DNA of 64,000 nt, taken from the NCBI GenBank assembly GCA_028707175.1, contig JAQTUV010000001.1, positions 558,001-622,000 on the forward strand, read 5' to 3'. How positions within the stretch are numbered: the first letter of the stretch is position 1; the number at the start of each line of letters is the position of its first letter. A program made the position numbers and the translations under genes. The DNA is from Sideroxydans sp. (lineage in GTDB: Bacteria > Pseudomonadota > Gammaproteobacteria > Burkholderiales > Gallionellaceae). Shown here piece after piece: positions 47,527 through 56,536 of the stretch. The notes under the pieces are model-generated. The model was not told the DNA's origin, did not search any database, and saw only the letters and a program-made list of their open reading frames with translations.

Positions 47527-47602
47527 GCCGATGTAGCTCAGTTGGTAGAGCAACTCACTCGTAACGAGTAGGTCACCAGTTCGATTCCGGTCATCGGCAC
47601 CA
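47527..47602 (+). tRNA. tRNA-Thr (anticodon CGU)
   Basis: 76 nt with CCA encoded. Acceptor arms GCCGATG and CATCGGC pair fully; D arm GCTC...GAGC; anticodon loop CTCGTAA gives CGU; T arm ACCAG-TTCGATT-CCGGT. The pair below the anticodon loop is A-C, a small defect. Its last part (from 47580) is the integration site of the following element, so the 3' end now present was delivered by the element. Confidence 0.93.
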
Positions 47603-47603
47603 T
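47580..47603 (+). other. attL: left direct repeat of the integrated element
   Basis: 24 bp covering the T-loop to the CCA end of tRNA-Thr plus one base, repeated exactly at 56513-56536. This is the usual target of tyrosine integrases. Confidence 0.9.
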
Positions 47604-47609
47604 CACCCA

Positions 47610-47627
47610 AAAACGAGGTCTCGTTTT
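47610..47627 (+). terminator. Terminator-like inverted repeat past tRNA-Thr
   Basis: AAAACGAG and CTCGTTTT face each other around GT, ending in four T. The stem would open to a larger loop in RNA. It lies inside the element, so it would replace the original tRNA terminator. Confidence 0.5.
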
Positions 47628-47723
47628 CCTAGCAATTTCATAGCAAATGTTTGAATTATATGAATGTTCAAACAAATACCCCTAAATTTCACTTGAAATC
47701 ATTAGTAACTTTTCTGCATAGTT

Positions 47724-47770
47724 GTTGGTATTATTTGTTGGTATCGAATTTCTGAACTGTTGGTATCGAC
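47724..47770 (+). repeat. Integrase arm-type repeats, left end
   Basis: GTTGGTAT occurs at 47724, 47737 and 47759; the last two extend to GTTGGTATCGA. The third ends directly at the integrase ATG. The same word occurs twice near the right end. Arm-type sites for the integrase are the natural reading, and the overlap with the start codon suggests that the integrase limits its own expression. Confidence 0.65.
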
Positions 47771-48970
47771 ATGGAAACTAATAAATTAACACCCTCAAAG
47801 ATTTCTCGGTTCAAAGCCAAACCCAAACAATACAAAGTGTCGGACGGTGGCGGGCTTTACCTCCTAGTCAAACCCAACGGGAAGCAATATTGGCATTTGG
47901 CATATAGGAAAGAAGGCAAGCACCAGATAGCGAGCTTTGGAAAATACCCACAAGTAAGCATTGATGCTGCACGGGCTAAGAGAGACGAGTTCAAACAGAA
48001 GCTGACCTCTAAGGCTTCAGTGCGGTCTAAGCCCTTACGGGAGGTTTTTGATAGTTTCGTGAGTAAGCGAAAGGCTACGGCAACTGAAAAGACAAGGGCA
48101 GACACAATCGCTCGTTGTTCGCCAATCATTGAGGAATTGGGTGATAGAAATATTGCCGAAATCAGAGCCTTCGATGTGCTTCCCTTATTACATGAAATAG
48201 AGGGGCGGTCTATTGAAGTCGCTCATCGGGCTGGAGCTGATATATCGGCTTGTTTTGATTTTGCCGTTGCCTCTGGTTTTATGGAGTTCAATCCTTGCGC
48301 GAGGATTACCAAATCGCTTTCGACCTTCAGAACATCAAACCGTAAAGCCATCTTAACTAGGGAAGGTCTTTTAGAGTATTACGAGAAGATAATAGGAGCG
48401 GATTCTGGAGAGATCGTTAATCGATACTTAATCATATTGCCATTTATTTTTAGTCGCCCCGGAGAACTTCGCAAAGCCAAATGGACTGAATTGAGCAATC
48501 ATATTTGGTCGCACAAAATGCCAAAACTTAGGGGGCTACCAGAGGATTTACAGAATGTAATTGTCCCGCTCCATGCCTTCGTTGAATTTCAGTTTGAGTG
48601 TATGAGAAAGCACACGGGGCATTTGGATTACATTTTTGCGATGACTCCCAAACCCAAGCCATTTAGCGATGGCACGGCTATGAAAATAATTAGAGTAGCC
48701 GGGCTTCGCGAAAAAACGAGTTTGCACGGTTTCAGAGCCACAGCTAGGACACTGTTAGATGAAGAGTTTGATTATGCCCAACACTTGATTGAGCATCAGC
48801 TCGGCCATGTGGTCAAGGATTCAAATGGCAATGCTTACAACAGAACAAAACATATTAAGCAGCGGACTGAAATGATGAACGCATGGGGAGATTTTCTATT
48901 AGGTATTTTGAGAGAAGCCGGTAATAAAGAAGCTCTCGATTTCGTTTCGCCTCCCCGAGACAACGTTTAA
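47771..48970 (+). CDS. Tyrosine recombinase (P4-type integrase)
   Basis: 399 residues. An N-terminal DUF4102-like arm-binding domain (SDGGGLYLLVKPNGKQYWHLAYR), a core-binding domain (about 90-190) and the catalytic domain. Catalytic Arg229 (SRPGELRKA), His319 and Arg322 (LHGFRATA), His346 (QLGHV) and nucleophile Tyr356 (NAYNRTKH) are all present, so it should be active. It sits next to attL, facing inward, as usual for islands in tRNA genes. Confidence 0.94.
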   Translation: METNKLTPSKISRFKAKPKQYKVSDGGGLYLLVKPNGKQYWHLAYRKEGKHQIASFGKYPQVSIDAARAKRDEFKQKLTSKASVRSKPLREVFDSFVSKRKATATEKTRADTIARCSPIIEELGDRNIAEIRAFDVLPLLHEIEGRSIEVAHRAGADISACFDFAVASGFMEFNPCARITKSLSTFRTSNRKAILTREGLLEYYEKIIGADSGEIVNRYLIILPFIFSRPGELRKAKWTELSNHIWSHKMPKLRGLPEDLQNVIVPLHAFVEFQFECMRKHTGHLDYIFAMTPKPKPFSDGTAMKIIRVAGLREKTSLHGFRATARTLLDEEFDYAQHLIEHQLGHVVKDSNGNAYNRTKHIKQRTEMMNAWGDFLLGILREAGNKEALDFVSPPRDNV

Positions 48971-49123
48971 AAGTTTAGATCCATTTAGTTCAATAATCTG
49001 TGAGCGCCAACGAGCGCGAATGCAGTCGATTTTGGTTTTGTTTTTCGAAATGCCTACAGGGTGAGGGGTGGGGTGTCGGGGTAGGGGGCGACCGCGAATG
49101 AGGTGCCACCTACCTGACAGGGT

Positions 49124-49142
49124 GAAGGGGATTATCCCCTTC
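49124..49142. terminator. Perfect hairpin between convergent integrase and RHH genes
   Basis: GAAGGGGAT-T-ATCCCCTTC is fully palindromic and lies between the integrase end (48970) and the RHH gene end (49177), which converge. No T-run on either side, so termination strength is uncertain. Confidence 0.5.
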
Positions 49143-49176
49143 CCTGCCGGAGGCGGTCTTTGGATTATTTCTCTCC

Positions 49177-49494
49177 TTATCCGAAGAGTTTCTTAACGGC
49201 TTCGCTTGCGAATTCAGCCGACCTCTGGCCTCGTTCTTGGTCTGGTGGAATGGCTAATTGCAAGTTGATTACCGCTTTGGCAAGTGAGCCATAGATAAGT
49301 TTTAATTTCCCTTCAAGTCGAGCCTCCAGCTCGTCAAGGCGGTTCTGCTCCTGCTCTGATTTCTTGAGCGATTGAAGACCAAGCTTCACAAAGAATTCAG
49401 CAGCGGTCGTCGGCTTCATGCCTTGAGCGATTGCGAATTCCTCAACCTCTTTTTGTAGTTCTGGATTCAAGCGAACCCCATATTGTCTTTTCAT
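49177..49494 (-). CDS. Ribbon-helix-helix DNA-binding protein with coiled-coil tail
   Basis: 105 residues from the ATG at 49494, preceded by AATAAGGAGCAGAAAC; the frame is open to 49602 but without a ribosome site. MKRQYGVRLNPELQKEV looks like the beta strand and first helix of an RHH fold, and FAIAQGMKPTTAAEFFVKLGL the second helix. From about 60 it is a charged coiled coil (QEQNRLDELEARLEGKL). Likely a dimeric regulator, partition or replication-accessory protein of the element. Its 5' side holds four GTTAAC sites and the cytosine-free tract. Confidence 0.7.
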   Translation of the reverse strand: MKRQYGVRLNPELQKEVEEFAIAQGMKPTTAAEFFVKLGLQSLKKSEQEQNRLDELEARLEGKLKLIYGSLAKAVINLQLAIPPDQERGQRSAEFASEAVKKLFG

Positions 49495-49576
49495 GTTTCT
49501 GCTCCTTATTGAAAAGTTCTGGAAGTCGAAATTGACTGCCTTACCTATAAGGTGTTTCTCGCGAAGATTTATTTTG

Positions 49577-49662
49577 GTTAACTCGGTTAACAATTCAGAC
49601 ATAAAGAGAAATTCACCAGAATGGCGAATGTTGTTAACAGGTGGCCTCCCATATTGGTTAAC
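49577..49662 (-). promoter_or_regulatory. Four GTTAAC sites upstream of the RHH gene
   Basis: GTTAAC hexamers at 49577, 49586, 49633 and 49657; three are preceded by G or TG (GGTTAAC). The first two are 9 bp apart, near one helical turn. Such a cluster upstream of an RHH gene suggests operator sites for it, by position only. A further palindrome AAATCT-TTAG-AGATTT lies at 49677-49692 and CACTG-CA-CAGTG at 49698-49709. Confidence 0.45.
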
Positions 49663-49785
49663 ACTCTTTTAGTTTGAAATCTTTAGAGATTTAGGCACAC
49701 TGCACAGTGCGTAATGTGTGCTTAGAAGTCATTGAAAATGACTGGTGTGATAATTATTGGATTTTTGTTTTTGGTTGGTGAAATT

Positions 49786-50177
49786 TAATCGCTTTATGGC
49801 GATTAAATGAGGTGTGAGTGAAATTGATTGTTGAAGGAATAATTTTTAGTTTAAGAGGATTTTAGAGAGATGATTTTTGTTGAGAGTTTGATTTTTTGGA
49901 GTTTGGGAACTTTAGAGATTTTGAATTTTTGGTGAGTTGAGTTTGATTGAATTTTGAGTGAGAGGATTTTTTGAGTTGAGAGAATTATTGAAGAGGATTT
50001 TGATTTGTAGTTGAGAGTTGGGTGATAGATATTTTGTTGGGAGTATGAGAATTTAGGTGATGGGAATTTTGAGGATTTTAGAATTGAAGTTAGAAGAGTT
50101 TGGATGTGAATTTGAAGTGAGAATTATTTTTGAGTGAGTAGATATTGAAGAAGGTTTTGATAAAAATGTTTGAAAAG
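49786..50177. other. Cytosine-free tract on the plus strand, bounded by a hairpin
   Basis: From 49801 to 50177 there is only one C (49910) in 377 bp; the strand is made of A, G and T. The left edge is a hairpin TAATCGC-TTTATG-GCGATTA (49786-49805) and the right edge is CCCAAG...CTTGGG (from about 50178). GAGGATTTT recurs at 49855, 49962, 49993 and 50071. Plus-strand frames are full of stops; there is no credible gene. Read on the minus strand it is G-free and rich in C and U/A, the composition of a Rho loading site. It could be a leader of the RHH gene, part of a replication origin, or something new. Confidence 0.85.
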
Positions 50178-50372
50178 CCCAAGCACACACTCCCCCTTGG
50201 GGCGAGATAAAACCAAAACCGCTAAACCCCAAAATCAACACCCCCATGCAGTGGGGCGATGCCCAAACCCGAACCCCTCTTTGTCGTCGCTCGTTGGCGA
50301 CTGTAAATAAACTATTTTGTAAAAATCACTTTGGCGTTGTCACGATCTGTTAAGTGTAGTTGCTGGAAAAAA
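50178..50372. other. Non-coding gap right of the cytosine-free tract
   Basis: Begins with C-rich DNA (CTCCCCCTTGGGG). CGCTCGTTGGCG at 50288-50299 is the exact inverse of 49005-49016, so this 12-bp pair brackets the RHH gene and the tract. A 64-codon minus-strand frame (50247-50053) runs into the tract, but is most likely a by-product of the lack of G there. Confidence 0.4.
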
Positions 50373-50449
50373 GTTCATGGTAGACCGCCTACGGCAACAG
50401 CCTACGGCAAAATCCAACTTGCCCGCCGCCCGCGCGGCGGATAAAGCAA
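50373..50449. repeat. Element-specific repeat, copy 1
   Basis: 77 bp starting GTTCATGGTAGACCGCC and ending in the hairpin CCGCCGC-CCGC-GCGGCGG plus ATAAAGCAA. A close second copy is at 51622-51697 and a shortened third at 52873-52896. Copy 1 stands 225 bp before the first WG-repeat gene. Confidence 0.8.
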
Positions 50450-50497
50450 TAGGCAAATATCCAGCATTGAAACTTCCCTTTAGTCAACCAACTAATT

Positions 50498-50509
50498 GGC
50501 CTATATATT
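50498..50509 (+). promoter_or_regulatory. GGCCTATATATT motif before the first WG gene
   Basis: The same 12 bp occurs upstream of the second WG gene (52980-52991). TATATATT resembles a -10 box; no strong -35 is visible. A common promoter for both genes is likely. Confidence 0.5.
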
Positions 50510-50597
50510 TTTTCAGGTTGAACACTTTATGCGGTGAAGGATATTATCGGTCGGTTATTAACAAGTGAAATTTACTAAACTCAAAAGGGGTAGGGCA

Positions 50598-51602
50598 ATG
50601 CTGCAAAAAGTAATCGCAACCATTCTGGCAGTATCGGTCTCTTTGACTGCACTAGCAGGGGTGAACAAAGAGGGCACTGATAAGCTTCTTATCCCTTGGA
50701 CTGATGTAGATACGAGACTAGAGGGGTACAAAAATACATCTGGAAAATGGATTATCAAACCAACATTCAAAAATGTGCGGCCATTCGATGGGGAATTGGC
50801 ACCCGCCGAGAAGGATGGATTATGGGGATTCATTAACAAGAAAGGTAAGTGGGTTGTTCAGCCTACATTTGACCTACTTGGCAACAGATTCAGTGAAGGA
50901 CTCCTTCGTGTTAGAAAAACCGAGAAGTGGGGCTTCATGGATGTGTCTGGAAAGTTAGTCATTGAACCAACATTCGACTTTGCTGATGATTTTTCAGATG
51001 GCCTTGCAGTTGCAAGATTGTCAGATGGTTTATCTGGCTATATCGACAAGACTGGAAACTGGGTCATTAAACCTCAATTCAAAGGCTCGGCTTTCGGATT
51101 CCATGATGGTCTCGCTCGCGTTTATCAGAATGACCTTGGTGGTTACATCGACAAATCGGGGAATTGGTTTATTGAGCCTCAATTTAGTTTTGTTGGAGAC
51201 TTCTCAGAAGGATTTGCAAGTGTGAGAGCTACTGATGGGAAATATGGGCTACTAACTAAAACGGGGCATTGGCGATTAAGCCCCAAATATGCGGAAGTGG
51301 GCGATTTCTCTGAAGGGCTTGTTGCTGTATATGTAGAAGGTGGTTACGGGTACTTTGACAGTGTAGGAAATGTCGTTATTGCCCCTCTTCAATTTGATTG
51401 GGTAAGTAAATTTGAAAATGGAGTAGCTAAAATTAAACTGAATCGAAAATATGGCTACATCAACAAATCTGGTGAAATCATAATTTCGCCCACATATCAG
51501 GAGATGTTTGGTTCGCCCAAAGATGGATATATTGAGGCGTGGGGCGAAAATGGAAAGTTTATTATTACCATTCCTGAATTGAAGTATTTGAAGATTGAAT
51601 AA
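50598..51602 (+). CDS. Exported WG-repeat protein 1
   Basis: 334 residues from the ATG at 50598, seven nucleotides after AAAGGGG; an upstream GTG at 50565 would spoil the signal peptide. MLQKVIATILAVSVSLTALA is a signal peptide. The rest is about eight WG (KWG) repeats of some 33 residues, pattern WGFINKxGKWVxxPxFxxxxxFSEGLxxV. WG repeats form beta structures of unknown role and are found in secreted and surface proteins. It is more divergent between repeats than WG protein 2. Confidence 0.86.
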   Translation: MLQKVIATILAVSVSLTALAGVNKEGTDKLLIPWTDVDTRLEGYKNTSGKWIIKPTFKNVRPFDGELAPAEKDGLWGFINKKGKWVVQPTFDLLGNRFSEGLLRVRKTEKWGFMDVSGKLVIEPTFDFADDFSDGLAVARLSDGLSGYIDKTGNWVIKPQFKGSAFGFHDGLARVYQNDLGGYIDKSGNWFIEPQFSFVGDFSEGFASVRATDGKYGLLTKTGHWRLSPKYAEVGDFSEGLVAVYVEGGYGYFDSVGNVVIAPLQFDWVSKFENGVAKIKLNRKYGYINKSGEIIISPTYQEMFGSPKDGYIEAWGENGKFIITIPELKYLKIE

Positions 51603-51621
51603 ATCACTCCATACAGAATAG

Positions 51622-51697
51622 GTTCAAGATAGACCGCACAAGACAACAGCCAACGGCAAAATCCAACTTGCCCGCGCCCGCGCGGCGGATAAAGCAA
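51622..51697. repeat. Element-specific repeat, copy 2
   Basis: 76 bp matching copy 1 with scattered changes in the first half and near identity from CGGCAAAATCCAACTTGCCC to ATAAAGCAA. It lies between the WG gene stop and the Sel1 gene terminator. Confidence 0.8.
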
Positions 51698-51700
51698 AAA

Positions 51701-51722
51701 CCCCAAGATTTAGGTCTTGGGG
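51701..51722 (-). terminator. Terminator of the Sel1-repeat gene
   Basis: CCCCAAGA-TTTAGG-TCTTGGGG, 8-bp stem. On the minus strand it is followed by TTTTTGC, so it is a good intrinsic terminator for the gene ending at 51752. Confidence 0.8.
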
Positions 51723-51751
51723 TTCAGTTTAAATCTTACTGTTTCAGTTTT

Positions 51752-52729
51752 TTATACACTACACAAATATTTAGAAACCAGATTGCCGTTTGGAATGTCA
51801 TCAAATGGTGAAGGAGTTGTGCCAGAGCGAGTAGCATCGCCTTTGCCACTTGAATTCAAATACCAAGAAAAGGAAAGTGTGCGTACACGGTGAGATTTAC
51901 AGTCCATTTCATAAAGGTTTTTCATTGAACGAATTAAATTTCCGTCAATCCTTACTGGAGTAATAAGGTCTGTAAGCACCCATACTTTTACATTTCCACC
52001 CGATTGTTGAATTGAAGATTGGTCAATGTATACAGTTGCAGATTCTGTCGAACCAAGGCTTTTCCACTCTGGAAGGTTCGATGAATTTTTCGTAGATTTA
52101 TGAAGACTTTCGTTTTCGAGAGTTTTCAGATGTTGTTGAGCTTGGCTATTTCCTTGCGCTGCGGCCTTCTGTAACCATTCCTTACCTTTCGCATAATCTT
52201 GCGCGACACCTACGCCTAGAATGTACCCTAACCCAATGGATAGCTGAGAGTTACTGAATCCTTGCTCGGCGGCTTTCAGATACCACTTGGCAGCTTGCTT
52301 GTAGTCCTGAACAACTCCGTCTCCTCGGTAATACAACCCCCCAAGGTTGTGTTGTGCTACTACATTATCCTGCTCAGCCGCTTTCAGATACCACTCGGCA
52401 GCTTGCTTGTAGTCCTGTGCAACACCCTGACCATATTCATACATTACACCCAGCATATAGTAAGCATCTATACGGCCTTGGTCGGCAGACTTTTGACACC
52501 AAGCGGCGGCTTGAGAGCGGTCCTGTTTTACACCTTGTCCGTTGTAGTACATGGCGCACAAATTGTATTGTGCATGCACATCGCCATGATTGGCTAATGG
52601 TTGCCACTCCTTCAGGGCAGATGCAAAATCGCCTCTTTCATAGTAACTCGCACCTTCTTCAAGTCCAGCAAAGCTAGACTTCGACACAAACATCCCCAAA
52701 AGCATCAAACAGGCAGTTAGTTTTCTCAT
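51752..52729 (-). CDS. Exported Sel1-repeat protein with surface-adhesin-E-like C-terminus
   Basis: 325 residues. Signal peptide MRKLTACLMLLGMFVSKSSFA. About five Sel1 repeats at 25-205 (pattern AQYNLGxMYYxGxGVxQDYxQAAxWYxKAAEQG). After a Ser/Lys-rich linker, residues about 220-325 (ATVYIDQSSI, KVWVLTDL, YEMDCKSHRVR, KYLCSV) match the adhesin-E domain found in short secreted proteins of Gram-negatives. Sel1 repeats bind other proteins. It is the only element gene of the cargo trio on the minus strand. Function unknown. Confidence 0.85.
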   Translation of the reverse strand: MRKLTACLMLLGMFVSKSSFAGLEEGASYYERGDFASALKEWQPLANHGDVHAQYNLCAMYYNGQGVKQDRSQAAAWCQKSADQGRIDAYYMLGVMYEYGQGVAQDYKQAAEWYLKAAEQDNVVAQHNLGGLYYRGDGVVQDYKQAAKWYLKAAEQGFSNSQLSIGLGYILGVGVAQDYAKGKEWLQKAAAQGNSQAQQHLKTLENESLHKSTKNSSNLPEWKSLGSTESATVYIDQSSIQQSGGNVKVWVLTDLITPVRIDGNLIRSMKNLYEMDCKSHRVRTLSFSWYLNSSGKGDATRSGTTPSPFDDIPNGNLVSKYLCSV

Positions 52730-52872
52730 GGATTAATTCAATTAGTTGTATTTATCTGACTCGATTATAACCAAGTTGATTCTCGCAATGGGCGGACAGG
52801 AGGCTTCCATATATGAATTTGCCGCATGCTTTCTGGGTGAATTAATCTGTTCGGGAGTGCTGTCGGCAAGTG

Positions 52873-52896
52873 GTTCATGGTAGACCGCCCACGGCA
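52873..52896. repeat. Element-specific repeat, copy 3 (partial)
   Basis: Keeps only the first 24 bp of the repeat (GTTCATGGTAGACCGCC and the first ACGGCA), then diverges. Confidence 0.7.
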
Positions 52897-52979
52897 GTCT
52901 GCTTGTCTGTACTTTTGAGGCGAAATAAAAACCCAACCCAACTTTAATCCCTAACCCAATTAAAATATCTAGCTTGAGA

Positions 52980-52991
52980 GGCCTATATATT
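52980..52991 (+). promoter_or_regulatory. GGCCTATATATT motif before the second WG gene
   Basis: Identical to 50498-50509. It lies 109 bp before the start codon here and 88 bp before it in WG gene 1. Confidence 0.5.
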
Positions 52992-53100
52992 ATTTGTGCT
53001 TTGAGTCTATTTCTAGGTCAGGTATTCTCGTCGTCGCTCTGTCGTCCATAAAACGGCAGGTGTATTTATCCTAATAACAAACTACAGCTGGAGATGATCC

Positions 53101-54024
53101 ATGAAGTTTATTTCAACAGTGAAGCTGGTCTTGCTTGCATTCGCTTTTGCCTTGTTGGTTCCTCTTGAGGCTATGGCTTTTAAAGAAGGTTTAGATGTTG
53201 TCTATCTCGGCGACAAATATGGCTACGTCAACAAGACGGGCAATGTTGTAATACAGCCGGAATTTACAGAAGCTAAAGATTTTAGTGAAGGTTTAGCTGC
53301 TGTCAAAGTTTTGGATAAAGAGGAAGTGCCTAAATGGGGTTATATCAATAAGGCTGGCAAAATACTGATTCAGCCGGAATTTAGCCAAGCTAAAGGATTT
53401 AGTGAAGGTTTAGCTCCTGTCCGAGTTTCGGATAAATGGGGTTTTGTCGATAAGACTGGCAAGATGGTTATACAACCAGAATTTTCTGATGCTCATGTTT
53501 TTAGTGAAGGTTTAGCCTCTGTCTGCTTCGGTTATAAATGTGGCTATATAAATAAGGCTGGCAAGATGGTTATACAGCCAGAATTATTTTCAGCCGGAGA
53601 ATTTAGTGAAGGTTTAGCTCCTGTACGAGTAACAGTTAACGATAAATGGGGATTCATAAATAACACTGGCAAGATGGTTATACAGCCAAAGTTTTCAGAA
53701 GCTCAAAGTTTTAGCGAAGGTTTAGCTCCTGTCAAAGTCGGGGGCGGTAACTGGGATTGGGGATTTATCGACAAGACGGGTAGGTTTGTTATACAGCCAG
53801 AAGGTTATTATTCTGTATGGGGATTTGCTGAAGGTTTGGCTGCTGTATGCCTTTCTTCGTATCAATGTGGATTTATAAACAAAGCTGGAGAGATGGTTAT
53901 ACAGCCAAAATATACTGATGCTTTTGCATTCAGTGATGGTTTAGCTAAAGTCAAAGTTGGGGATGGCTGGGGCAAGTGGTACTTTATCGACAAGACTGGC
54001 ACTCTGATAATGGAAGATAAGTGA
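53101..54024 (+). CDS. Exported WG-repeat protein 2
   Basis: 307 residues, CTGGAG seven nucleotides before the ATG. Signal peptide MKFISTVKLVLLAFAFALLV up to about residue 26 (EAMA-F). Then seven full and one partial WG repeat, strikingly regular: WGFINKTGKMVIQPEFxxAxxFSEGLAPV. DNA repeats follow (AGTGAAGGTTTAGC recurs), which implies recent amplification. Location is periplasmic, surface or secreted; the partner is unknown. A paralogue of WG protein 1. Confidence 0.88.
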   Translation: MKFISTVKLVLLAFAFALLVPLEAMAFKEGLDVVYLGDKYGYVNKTGNVVIQPEFTEAKDFSEGLAAVKVLDKEEVPKWGYINKAGKILIQPEFSQAKGFSEGLAPVRVSDKWGFVDKTGKMVIQPEFSDAHVFSEGLASVCFGYKCGYINKAGKMVIQPELFSAGEFSEGLAPVRVTVNDKWGFINNTGKMVIQPKFSEAQSFSEGLAPVKVGGGNWDWGFIDKTGRFVIQPEGYYSVWGFAEGLAAVCLSSYQCGFINKAGEMVIQPKYTDAFAFSDGLAKVKVGDGWGKWYFIDKTGTLIMEDK

Positions 54025-54070
54025 CATAGCTGTCGTAGTACATAGGGCAGATGTTTTCGCTTAAGTTTGA

Positions 54071-54096
54071 AGCCCGCGCAAGCGGGCTATTTTGTT
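54071..54096. terminator. Terminator between WG gene 2 and the replication gene
   Basis: AGCCCGC-GCAA-GCGGGCT, a perfect 7-bp stem with a stable tetraloop, then ATTTTGTT. It closes the WG gene and, reversed, lies directly past the stop of the rep gene. Confidence 0.8.
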
Positions 54097-55975
54097 AATT
54101 GTGATTTATCCACTCAGCCCAAGCCTTAGGGTGTCTCTGCTTCCAAAGCTCTAGCTCGTCCCCTCCTAAAAACTCACTTTGTGAACTGCACATTTGAGGG
54201 TGTTTGGATGTTGTTTTGTCATTGGAGATATTAGGAATAATCCAAGGCTTCCCGTTGCAGGTTCGTAGTTGCAAAGGGAGGTCTTCAAGTTTGGTGACTG
54301 GTTTAGATAGGCAGAACCAAGTTCGTAGATTTGAATCCATAATTGCACTGCTTCTTGGCCCCTTCCTATCTGCATTCTTTGCGATGGTTGCCTTTTTGGA
54401 GTTCCAGAGAGACAAAAGAGGTTTTCTTTCCGCTCTAATCAGTTGCGCGATCTGTAAAGAAGTCGACGCAAAGTCTGCTTGTCTAATACTTGGATAATTT
54501 GGAATAACTTCAACTTTCTCGATTTTTACTTTATTTCCTATTGGTTTTTGATTTATTAGCTTTTTGTCGAAAAACTTCGGAAAGCTGAACGATTGGCTCC
54601 GGTCGTCTTGGAAGAAAAACATGACGGTCTTGGTGTCGTCGGTCGTAACGATTCGACTTGAAACAGGACGGTCACTTTCTTTGACTCCAAGCCCACCCAT
54701 GAGCTTGATAAAGGTGGATGCATTACCTTCGGTCGCCGATGCCCAGATAGGGGCTAAAACAGGGTCTACGGGGCATTCCTTTATCATTCTGACATTCCGC
54801 CATACCGCGAGGTTTGGAATGCCAAAGAATTGATGCCTACGGATTTTCCAAGTCGTCGCCCATGTTTCAATGGATGCGGCCTCGCCTGTTAACTCATTCA
54901 CTGCCGACATAGATTTCAAAACATATTTAGCTGCATAACTTGACGCCTTGGCTTGACCGTTATCCTTCATGAATTTGAAGCCAATATCTGACTGCCATTC
55001 TTTGACCTTCCGAAACTCTTGCTCGATGGTGTCGCTGTCTATCTCATTGAAAAAGACAATCACATGCCAATGTGGGCAACCGTCCTGGTGTGGTTCTACT
55101 GCCCTAAAGCCGGATAGAACGATTCCTTTCTTGCGAAGTCTTGCTTCTGCTTTATGCCATTTGTCGTGTATCCAATTGTTTGCCTCGGTGGGTGTTGTGC
55201 CGTCCCATGAGTTATGGCCGACTGTTGGATTAGGGTGCATATGTTGCGGTGCTGTAAATGTCAGCATTGCCCAAGTCATGCTTAGTGATTTAGCGGACTC
55301 TTCCAATCCTTTGAGCATTACAAAAGTCTCAGCGAATTTGTTGCTGGTCGCTTGTTCCATTAAGGAAAGCATTGATAGTTCTTTTTCGCCGTTGCTCAAT
55401 GTTGTTCTTTCGCCGTATGACCTCCACATTGATTTTTGTTGGTTGCGAAGAGATTGCTCAAACTTGGTGCAATGTTTAATTCCACTATCACCCCCAACCG
55501 TTTGCAAGCTCATGTTCAAAATGCTGACAGACTGCTTAACCTTCGTCCGCAGTTTTCTTCTAATCTTCAGTGCATTGTCGTCGTAGGGCTTTGCTAGGCT
55601 ACGAATCTCGTCCTCACCTCTGATGGTTTGGTATCTGATAGCTTCTTTCATGACTTTATCGCTCAACCGTTTGTTGAGGCTGATTAGATCCGTTGAGTCG
55701 CTAAGCATGATTGAGATGAGTTTCTCGAATGCCTCGTTATCTTTTAGTTGTGAGGCTTTTTTAGAAAGCCGTTCCATGACTGTAGAGGTCTTATCACGAA
55801 GCCAAGCATTAGCTTCGTACTCACCTTTGAGTGGTGAGATTTCGATATATCGCTGTAATAGACTATCGCGGATGGCTGGATGAATTGATGTAAGCCTCCA
55901 ATCCACCCATTCCGGTGTTGTGAGTTGGCTAATCTGTTTAGGAGATAGCTTTTCGCGGTCTTTGAAGGGTGTCAT
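54095..55975 (-). CDS. Rolling-circle replication initiator (phage GPA-like HUH endonuclease)
   Basis: 626 residues. The central part has the three motifs of HUH replication proteins: LTFTAPQHMHPNP (238-250, motif 1), PHWHVIVFF with His302-Trp303-His304 (metal site, motif 2), and YAAKYVLK with Tyr347 and Tyr351 (motif 3). Two tyrosines point to the superfamily of phage phiX174/P2 A proteins, which nick one strand and start rolling-circle replication. The N-terminal 230 residues are helical; the C-terminal part from about 420 is unrecognised. It is the largest gene of the element and implies autonomous replication after excision. Confidence 0.85.
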   Translation of the reverse strand: MTPFKDREKLSPKQISQLTTPEWVDWRLTSIHPAIRDSLLQRYIEISPLKGEYEANAWLRDKTSTVMERLSKKASQLKDNEAFEKLISIMLSDSTDLISLNKRLSDKVMKEAIRYQTIRGEDEIRSLAKPYDDNALKIRRKLRTKVKQSVSILNMSLQTVGGDSGIKHCTKFEQSLRNQQKSMWRSYGERTTLSNGEKELSMLSLMEQATSNKFAETFVMLKGLEESAKSLSMTWAMLTFTAPQHMHPNPTVGHNSWDGTTPTEANNWIHDKWHKAEARLRKKGIVLSGFRAVEPHQDGCPHWHVIVFFNEIDSDTIEQEFRKVKEWQSDIGFKFMKDNGQAKASSYAAKYVLKSMSAVNELTGEAASIETWATTWKIRRHQFFGIPNLAVWRNVRMIKECPVDPVLAPIWASATEGNASTFIKLMGGLGVKESDRPVSSRIVTTDDTKTVMFFFQDDRSQSFSFPKFFDKKLINQKPIGNKVKIEKVEVIPNYPSIRQADFASTSLQIAQLIRAERKPLLSLWNSKKATIAKNADRKGPRSSAIMDSNLRTWFCLSKPVTKLEDLPLQLRTCNGKPWIIPNISNDKTTSKHPQMCSSQSEFLGGDELELWKQRHPKAWAEWINHN

Positions 55976-56028
55976 AGCATTTCGGTGCTATGCCAACTCG
56001 CCTTATATAGCCAAAATGAATATAGCAC

Positions 56029-56057
56029 TTGACACGCTATTATTTATGGTTATATAG
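56029..56057 (+). promoter_or_regulatory. Strong promoter upstream of and divergent from the rep gene
   Basis: Perfect TTGACA at 56029-56034, 16-17 bp, then TATATA/ATATAG at 56051-56057. It points away from rep. It is the best-looking promoter of the element. Confidence 0.7.
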
Positions 56058-56059
56058 TC

Positions 56060-56125
56060 CTGCTTGTCTCGGGCAGAGAACAAGTAGGAGGGGGGCGGTC
56101 AGCTTATAGCTACCGCCCCTTCTTC
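56060..56125 (+). ncRNA. Candidate small RNA divergent from rep
   Basis: Right after the promoter comes a long hairpin CTGCTTGTCTC-GGGCA-GAGAACAAGTAG (one bulge, one wobble; 56060-56087), then the single-stranded GAGG and a second hairpin GGGGCGGT...ACCGCCCC (56092-56119) with inner AGCT/AGCT and a TTCTTCATTT tail. The layout promoter, hairpin, terminator within 70 nt fits a small regulatory RNA, possibly controlling the element's copy number. No ORF with a start fits. Confidence 0.55.
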
Positions 56126-56460
56126 ATTTGATACTATTGATTTAATGCTAAACATGTCGAATGCCTTTTCTCTGCTCAAAGCAGTAAAAAAAAGCATTCG
56201 GTTCTTGACCTGTTCCCCAGAGCTTGTCTTTAGCAAGATAGTTATAATGGAACCCGCTGGCTAAGTAATACATGTATTAAAAAGCCGTTTACGGTGCATT
56301 GCTGTTATCAGCAACCCGGCGAATAAAACACATGAATAGGCTTCAGTCAAATAGCTAATAATTATAGTTAAGCGATTGATTATAATTTTTATTTATAATC
56401 GAATTATTGATGTTTGAATTTCCGTTGATATGTAAAGGAAAGTGAAGAATCCGAATCAAA
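56126..56460. repeat. AT-rich region with hairpins before attR
   Basis: No gene seen. CGAATGC (from 56158) pairs with GCATTCG (to about 56200), with further pairing of CTTTT and AAAAG inside. GATTATAA (56378-56385) pairs with TTATAATC (56393-56400). The region may hold the origin of replication or recombination directionality sites. Confidence 0.4.
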
Positions 56461-56484
56461 GTTGGTATTTTTGTTGGTATCGAC
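56461..56484 (+). repeat. Integrase arm-type repeats, right end
   Basis: GTTGGTAT at 56461-56468 and GTTGGTATCGAC at 56473-56484, the same words in the same orientation as at the left end, 29-45 bp inside attR. Confidence 0.65.
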
Positions 56485-56512
56485 CTTAATTTACCATTGA
56501 TATGATTGATAA

Positions 56513-56536
56513 TTCGATTCCGGTCATCGGCACCAT
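56513..56536 (+). other. attR: right direct repeat of the integrated element
   Basis: Exact 24-bp copy of the tRNA-Thr 3' end at 47580-47603, with no tRNA body before it. Chromosomal sequence resumes after it. Confidence 0.9.

Follow-up and report, generated by a model that had tools for sequence, protein, structure and literature searches.

The question raised by this locus is why one strand of an integrated element should run for 377 base pairs (bp) with a single cytosine. The tract sits in an 8.9-kb tRNA-Thr integrative element (47604-56536; Table 1) within the window, i.e., the whole 64,000-nucleotide (nt) stretch analysed here, which corresponds to positions 558001-622000 of its contig in a source genome of 2.89 Mb in 19 contigs. 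Besides the tract, the element contains genes for an integrase, a 105-amino-acid (aa) protein, two WG-repeat proteins, a Sel1/Adhesin_E protein, and a Phage_GPA replication initiator. A reading of the sequence alone had called the latter an HUH initiator, which the family match supports, Phage_GPA initiators being of the HUH type. The same reading had assigned the 105-aa protein to the ribbon-helix-helix class, a label that an impression of the N-terminus also suggests but that no family search supports, the protein having no match in Pfam, NCBIfam, or PDB. Its sole family match is PHROG 24852, of unknown function (E 9e-4), and none of the six element proteins was matched by PADLOC. Related repeats at 50345-50450, 51617-51697, and 52845-52896 border the WG-repeat and Sel1-type genes and occur in the genome at these three places, all in the element; by these border repeats, the genes look as if they were exchangeable cassettes. 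In addition, a leftward hairpin followed by a T-run was seen by eye just past the Sel1-type gene (51690-51735).

Table 1 Features of the element and of the cytosine-poor tract, in window coordinates
Feature	Coordinates	Strand	Basis or remark
Left attachment repeat	47580..47603	+	24-bp repeat at 3' end of tRNA-Thr (47527-47602)
Tyrosine integrase of element	47771..48970	+	Family search
105-aa gene	49177..49494	-	Start at 49494, preceded by AAGGAG (by eye)
Further predicted hairpins (cluster)	49577..49745		Folds
Leftward C-free extension beyond left hairpin	49743..49782		Part of C-free run 49743-49789
Left hairpin, 10-11 bp stem, ATTTAATCGC / GCGATTAAAT	49783..49808		Predicted folds; coordinates read from sequence
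C-free tract	49801..50177		Base counts, contig comparison
Right border, C-rich and G-poor on + strand	50178..50258		Contains leftward terminator-like hairpin 50258-50239
Replication initiator, Phage_GPA family	54095..55975	-	Family search
Right attachment repeat	56513..56536	+	24/24 bp identical to left repeat

Counting bases in the assembled sequence bears out the tract as first described: the plus strand of 49801-50177 holds A112 C1 G112 T152, and the minus strand is correspondingly G-free, that one position aside, with 30% C. Counted from 49786, the totals are A115 C4 G115 T158; three of the four cytosines (49790, 49792, and 49800) belong to the left hairpin, the fourth lies at 49910, and the following 267 bp (49911-50177) contain none, against C-free runs of at most 36 bp in the window outside this region. 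The probability of one or no C in 377 positions is 2.5e-41 at the C frequency of the window; with the frequency in the left flank (49641-49788), itself C-poor, it is still 2.7e-20. Sliding-window counts over 400 kb of the contig gave no comparable window, with a minimum of 44 C per 377 bp versus 1 in the tract and a longest C-free run of 59 bp; the bias is thus, as had been claimed, far from chance. At the other compared loci, copies of the tract left out, C-free or G-free runs reached at most 62 bp, and the longest such run in a locus of a 27% GC genome was 74 bp, versus 267 bp here. The tract has a GC content of 30% versus 51% for the contig, a plus-strand GC skew near +1, and more T than A (152 versus 112), the latter also being true of its left flank. 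GA and TT steps are enriched and TA and GG steps depleted, so the tract is not plain background minus C. The cytosine-poor tract is real and strange.

The borders of the tract differ in character. On the left, the C-poor zone starts before the tract (4 C in 435 bp, 49743-50177) and includes a hairpin that is predicted on both strands and that a leftward transcript would reach straight after the tract. On the right, the edge is sharp, the plus strand of 50178-50250 being 41% C and 12% G, and the hairpin is short and GC-rich; the placement of the tract between two hairpins was thus correctly recognised. GTTAAC occurs six times in the window, and four of these sites fall within 86 bp (49577-49662) in the hairpin cluster upstream of the 105-aa gene, a possible operator. 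Similar G-poor stretches of the form GGCGA.ATAAAA...CC occur at 50203-50218 and 52918-52932, each before WG-repeat genes, and the second one (the 52918-52932 copy) includes a 49-bp G-free run (52923-52971). A coding role for the tract was rejected, as stops occur in all six frames across 49786-50260, and an Rfam search carried to E 1 gave nothing there.

Relatives were sought with the tract and with three of the element's genes. In its own genome, the tract matched only itself at the DNA level. Matching pieces covered at most 6% of the tract query in plasmids (91 records) and at most 11% in phages (49 records), and across 399 genomes of the order, with up to two candidates scored per genome, the best non-self match was 31 bp (E 5e-5 for one genome); all these matches look like chance between AT-rich stretches. 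The initiator had no match in the genome_contigs or viral_contigs collections, and distant relatives were present in 42 of the 399 order genomes (own included), with identities of at most 41% among the stretches listed. Within the genus, 20 of 34 genomes (own included) have integrase relatives, at no more than 44% identity apart from the protein itself, and viral_contigs gave none. One of them, at 42% identity, is a second such integrase in the same genome (L043, 9564-10844), located beside tRNA-Glu and tRNA-Ala genes and without a C-free tract. The 105-aa protein matched nothing in viral_contigs or in 299 other order genomes, and its single genome_contigs match, read as part of a ParB-like gene, is taken to be chance. 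None of the searches by tract, initiator, integrase, or 105-aa gene found a true sister element.

The surroundings of these relatives were then scanned in 31 stretches (23 around integrase matches, six around initiator matches, and two flanking the window) and in 40 more around initiator matches, the initiator being confirmed in all 40 and in the six. None of the 71 stretches (46 with initiator relatives, 23 with integrase relatives, and the two window flanks) contains a C-free tract; the tract is therefore not a general property of elements carrying either gene. Across all 103 scanned loci, C and G counts per 150 bp went down to 8 at the lowest, versus 0 C in the tract, and C-free runs in four phage records reached at most 51 bp. 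C-poor or rut-like stretches near other elements (loci L110, L065, L140, L115, L134, L074, L108, L055, and L146) looked on reading like ordinary AT-rich or coding DNA. Among the top matches listed, the open literature described no such one-base-free feature.

The strongest clue to the role of the tract is its polarity, as folding separates the two possible transcripts. The predicted minimum free energy (MFE) is 0.0 kcal/mol for the leftward RNA and -53 kcal/mol for the rightward RNA, while 119 other 377-nt windows average -103 and -116 kcal/mol (least folded, -64.5 and -87.6) in the leftward and rightward directions, respectively. The leftward RNA folds less than every one of 100 mononucleotide shuffles, and the rightward RNA folds more than every one. 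With 100 dinucleotide shuffles as the reference, neither strand stands out, as 76% (leftward) and 66% (rightward) are at least as unfolded. In two simulated C-free backgrounds of equal composition, with 100 sequences each, the rightward RNA folds more strongly than 97% and 99% of the sequences, and 31% and 12% equal the unfolded state of the leftward RNA. The tract is thus not tuned for an unfolded rightward RNA, which folds beyond all mononucleotide shuffles and nearly all C-free simulations. If any RNA matters, it is the leftward one, which lacks structure because it lacks G.

This leftward RNA, built from A, C, and U, also has closely set cytosines. The largest C-to-C gap is 12 nt, an ordinary value reached by 33% of shuffles, and C counts per 20-nt bin are even to a degree seen in 0.4% of 1000 dinucleotide shuffles (best of eight bin sizes, uncorrected). 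UC steps are enriched and CC steps depleted, and the number of YC steps per 78 nt is high (mean 17.8; window maximum 28). On both strands of the 64-kb window, 312 windows of 78 nt combine no more than 2 G with 15 C or more, and every one lies in the tract on the leftward strand; the same criterion applied to 95 other loci (3.36 million strand-bases) returned three regions of 78-83 nt.

These properties bring to mind the loading sites of the termination factor Rho, which the genome encodes. According to PMC6407284, rut sites are unstructured stretches of 70-80 nt with C over G, a C every 11-13 nt, and a hairpin at most 150 nt downstream. Read leftward, the tract has C over G in 78-nt windows, its largest C gap falls within this spacing (and is as small in 33% of shuffles), its RNA is unstructured over all 377 nt, and the hairpin at 49783-49808 lies within the stated distance. 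The leftward transcript may therefore be a Rho loading site, a tentative reading to which we give a probability of roughly 35%. The G-free minus strand would be maintained so that the leftward transcript stays unfolded and its C residues follow one another closely and rather evenly; this RNA would be loaded with Rho over its length, and RNA polymerase would be stopped at the adjoining hairpins, from 49808 down to 49577, ahead of the gene at 49494-49177, such that this end of the element would be silenced or insulated. Composition, folding polarity, C spacing, and the adjacent hairpin are features of the locus itself, from which we infer leftward transcription, Rho binding, termination, and a benefit to the element.

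Several observations count against Rho loading. The promoter scan upstream of the tract gave one weak leftward promoter-like site (50343-50314), which a leftward terminator-like hairpin (50258-50239) separates from the tract; a second such hairpin near 51700, recognised by eye, would end transcription coming from the Sel1-type gene, and the region holds no excess of promoter-like sites over shuffles. Both the weakness of this promoter-like site and the terminator-like hairpin upstream speak against the reading, as do the length of the tract, since about 80 nt would suffice for Rho, the depletion of CC steps, a YC count below the window maximum, the ordinary 12-nt gap, the folding relative to dinucleotide shuffles and to the simulated C-free backgrounds, and the failure of the searches to find a sister element. 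In favour of it, the enrichment of UC steps is in line with the U/C-rich anchors of Bacillus Rut sites described in PMC12350095. PMC9160355 reports that the efficiency of strong terminators does not track rut properties, so composition carries less weight as evidence. The sequence-only reading had proposed a Rho-loading leader of the 105-aa gene; its composition, strand polarity, C spacing, and downstream hairpin hold up, but its role as leader of that gene is doubtful, given a leftward promoter-like site between the two (49782-49753) besides the weak site and the hairpin upstream. As a long shot, it could be speculated that the G-free RNA serves to decoy Rho, or offers it a landing strip of a size not yet described, with which the element would handle the host's guard against foreign transcription by base composition alone, without conserved sequence.

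Alternatively, the composition may act at the DNA level, as in the original proposal of an origin for the initiator or its lagging strand. With one strand lacking C and the other G, G-C stems are impossible in either single strand, and the tract could open readily and, being unable to fold, give a helicase, primase, or single-strand-binding protein a place to land on the excised form, beside the hairpin cluster, during replication started by the GPA-type initiator. In agreement with this, both DNA strands are nearly unfolded over the tract, in contrast to the several hairpins of the left flank, the GC content is well below that of the contig, and the element encodes the initiator. However, such a tract does not recur in any of the 46 stretches with distant initiator relatives, and the annotated cleavage site of PM2 falls within the initiator gene, so the origin may be elsewhere. 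Moreover, a zone of this kind needs just the loss of C or G and leaves the extra folding of the rightward RNA relative to shuffles unexplained. Taken together, we regard this explanation as the main rival of Rho loading, possible though doubtful.

Drift may also have produced the tract, in that slippage of C-free words, for example, could yield a low-complexity product without selected function, whose right end was perhaps cut by the arrival of a WG-repeat cassette. Among the elements compared, only this one has the tract, repeats are found at the cassette borders, and one weak tandem (17-18-bp unit over 55 bp) is accompanied by a faint purine/T periodicity of about 8.3 and 15.5-16 bp (max-z p from 150 shuffles, 0.013-0.027 in three of four letter sets; A gave 0.39). 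Yet repeated k-mers (k 4-12) stay within dinucleotide shuffles (p 0.06-0.47), which, despite 9 of 119 autocorrelation lags above z 2, led to the rejection of a tandem repeat or iteron array, and slippage would give clearer repeats. As the base bias is also near total, drift appears unlikely.

Cytosine deamination, turning C to T on the plus strand while single-stranded, was another of the original proposals and would fit the excess of T over A in the tract. One model comparison, that with forward coding DNA at order 0, also favours conversion of C to T over avoidance of C. However, C-avoidance models are better in the other 23 of 24 comparisons (eight overlapping backgrounds, orders 0-2), the left flank shares the excess of T, the tract edges are sharp, and no source copy was found in C-to-T space, where the best score of the tract was matched by 13 of 40 shuffles; a deamination relic is therefore disfavoured and improbable. 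The proposed binding array for an element protein builds on GAGGATTTT, which does recur four times (49855, 49962, 49993, and 50071), as counted in the sequence-only reading. None of 500 dinucleotide shuffles holds this word four times, but 15.6% hold some 9-mer four times, which makes the recurrence weak evidence. Although the faint alternation of purines and T would suit an array of GAGGATTTT-like sites, their spacing is irregular (107, 31, and 78 bp), k-mer repetition is no higher than in shuffles, and loss of C between sites is not required, so the array is weakly disfavoured and has similarly poor odds. Finally, an R-loop, in which a rightward C-free, G-containing RNA would stay on the C-rich minus strand to prime replication or open the DNA, is very improbable despite the GC skew, as this RNA folds beyond mononucleotide shuffles and would compete with the hybrid, GGG occurs only four times, and, for rightward transcription, the scan gave no promoter-like site where the tract starts on the left.

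If its composition is selected, the tract would represent a functional element set by base content and missed by homology searches. Were the Rho-loading reading true, the tract would be unusually long for a natural rut and would offer a clean test of the effects of length and spacing on termination, while a DNA-level role, if true, would indicate a zone that is single-stranded as an integrative element replicates. Either reading suggests a simple scan of other genomes for one-base-free tracts.

In common with rut sites, the tract has C over G, an unstructured RNA, closely spaced C, and a downstream hairpin; it differs in being about five times as long (~380 nt versus the 70-80 nt given in PMC6407284), nearly without G, and preceded by only a weak promoter-like site. 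If Rho-related, it would thus be a rut variant distinguished by its length and by having almost no G. Rolling-circle phages and plasmids have origin and intergenic hairpin regions. The element shares with them a hairpin cluster in its longest intergenic region and a GPA-type initiator, whereas the four phage records and the 46 initiator stretches lack the C-free tract. A further likeness in form is man-made, as G-less cassettes for in vitro transcription are a few hundred bp in which one base is absent on one strand. Both the cassettes and the tract extend over a few hundred bp without one base on one strand, but the tract is natural and resides in an integrated element.
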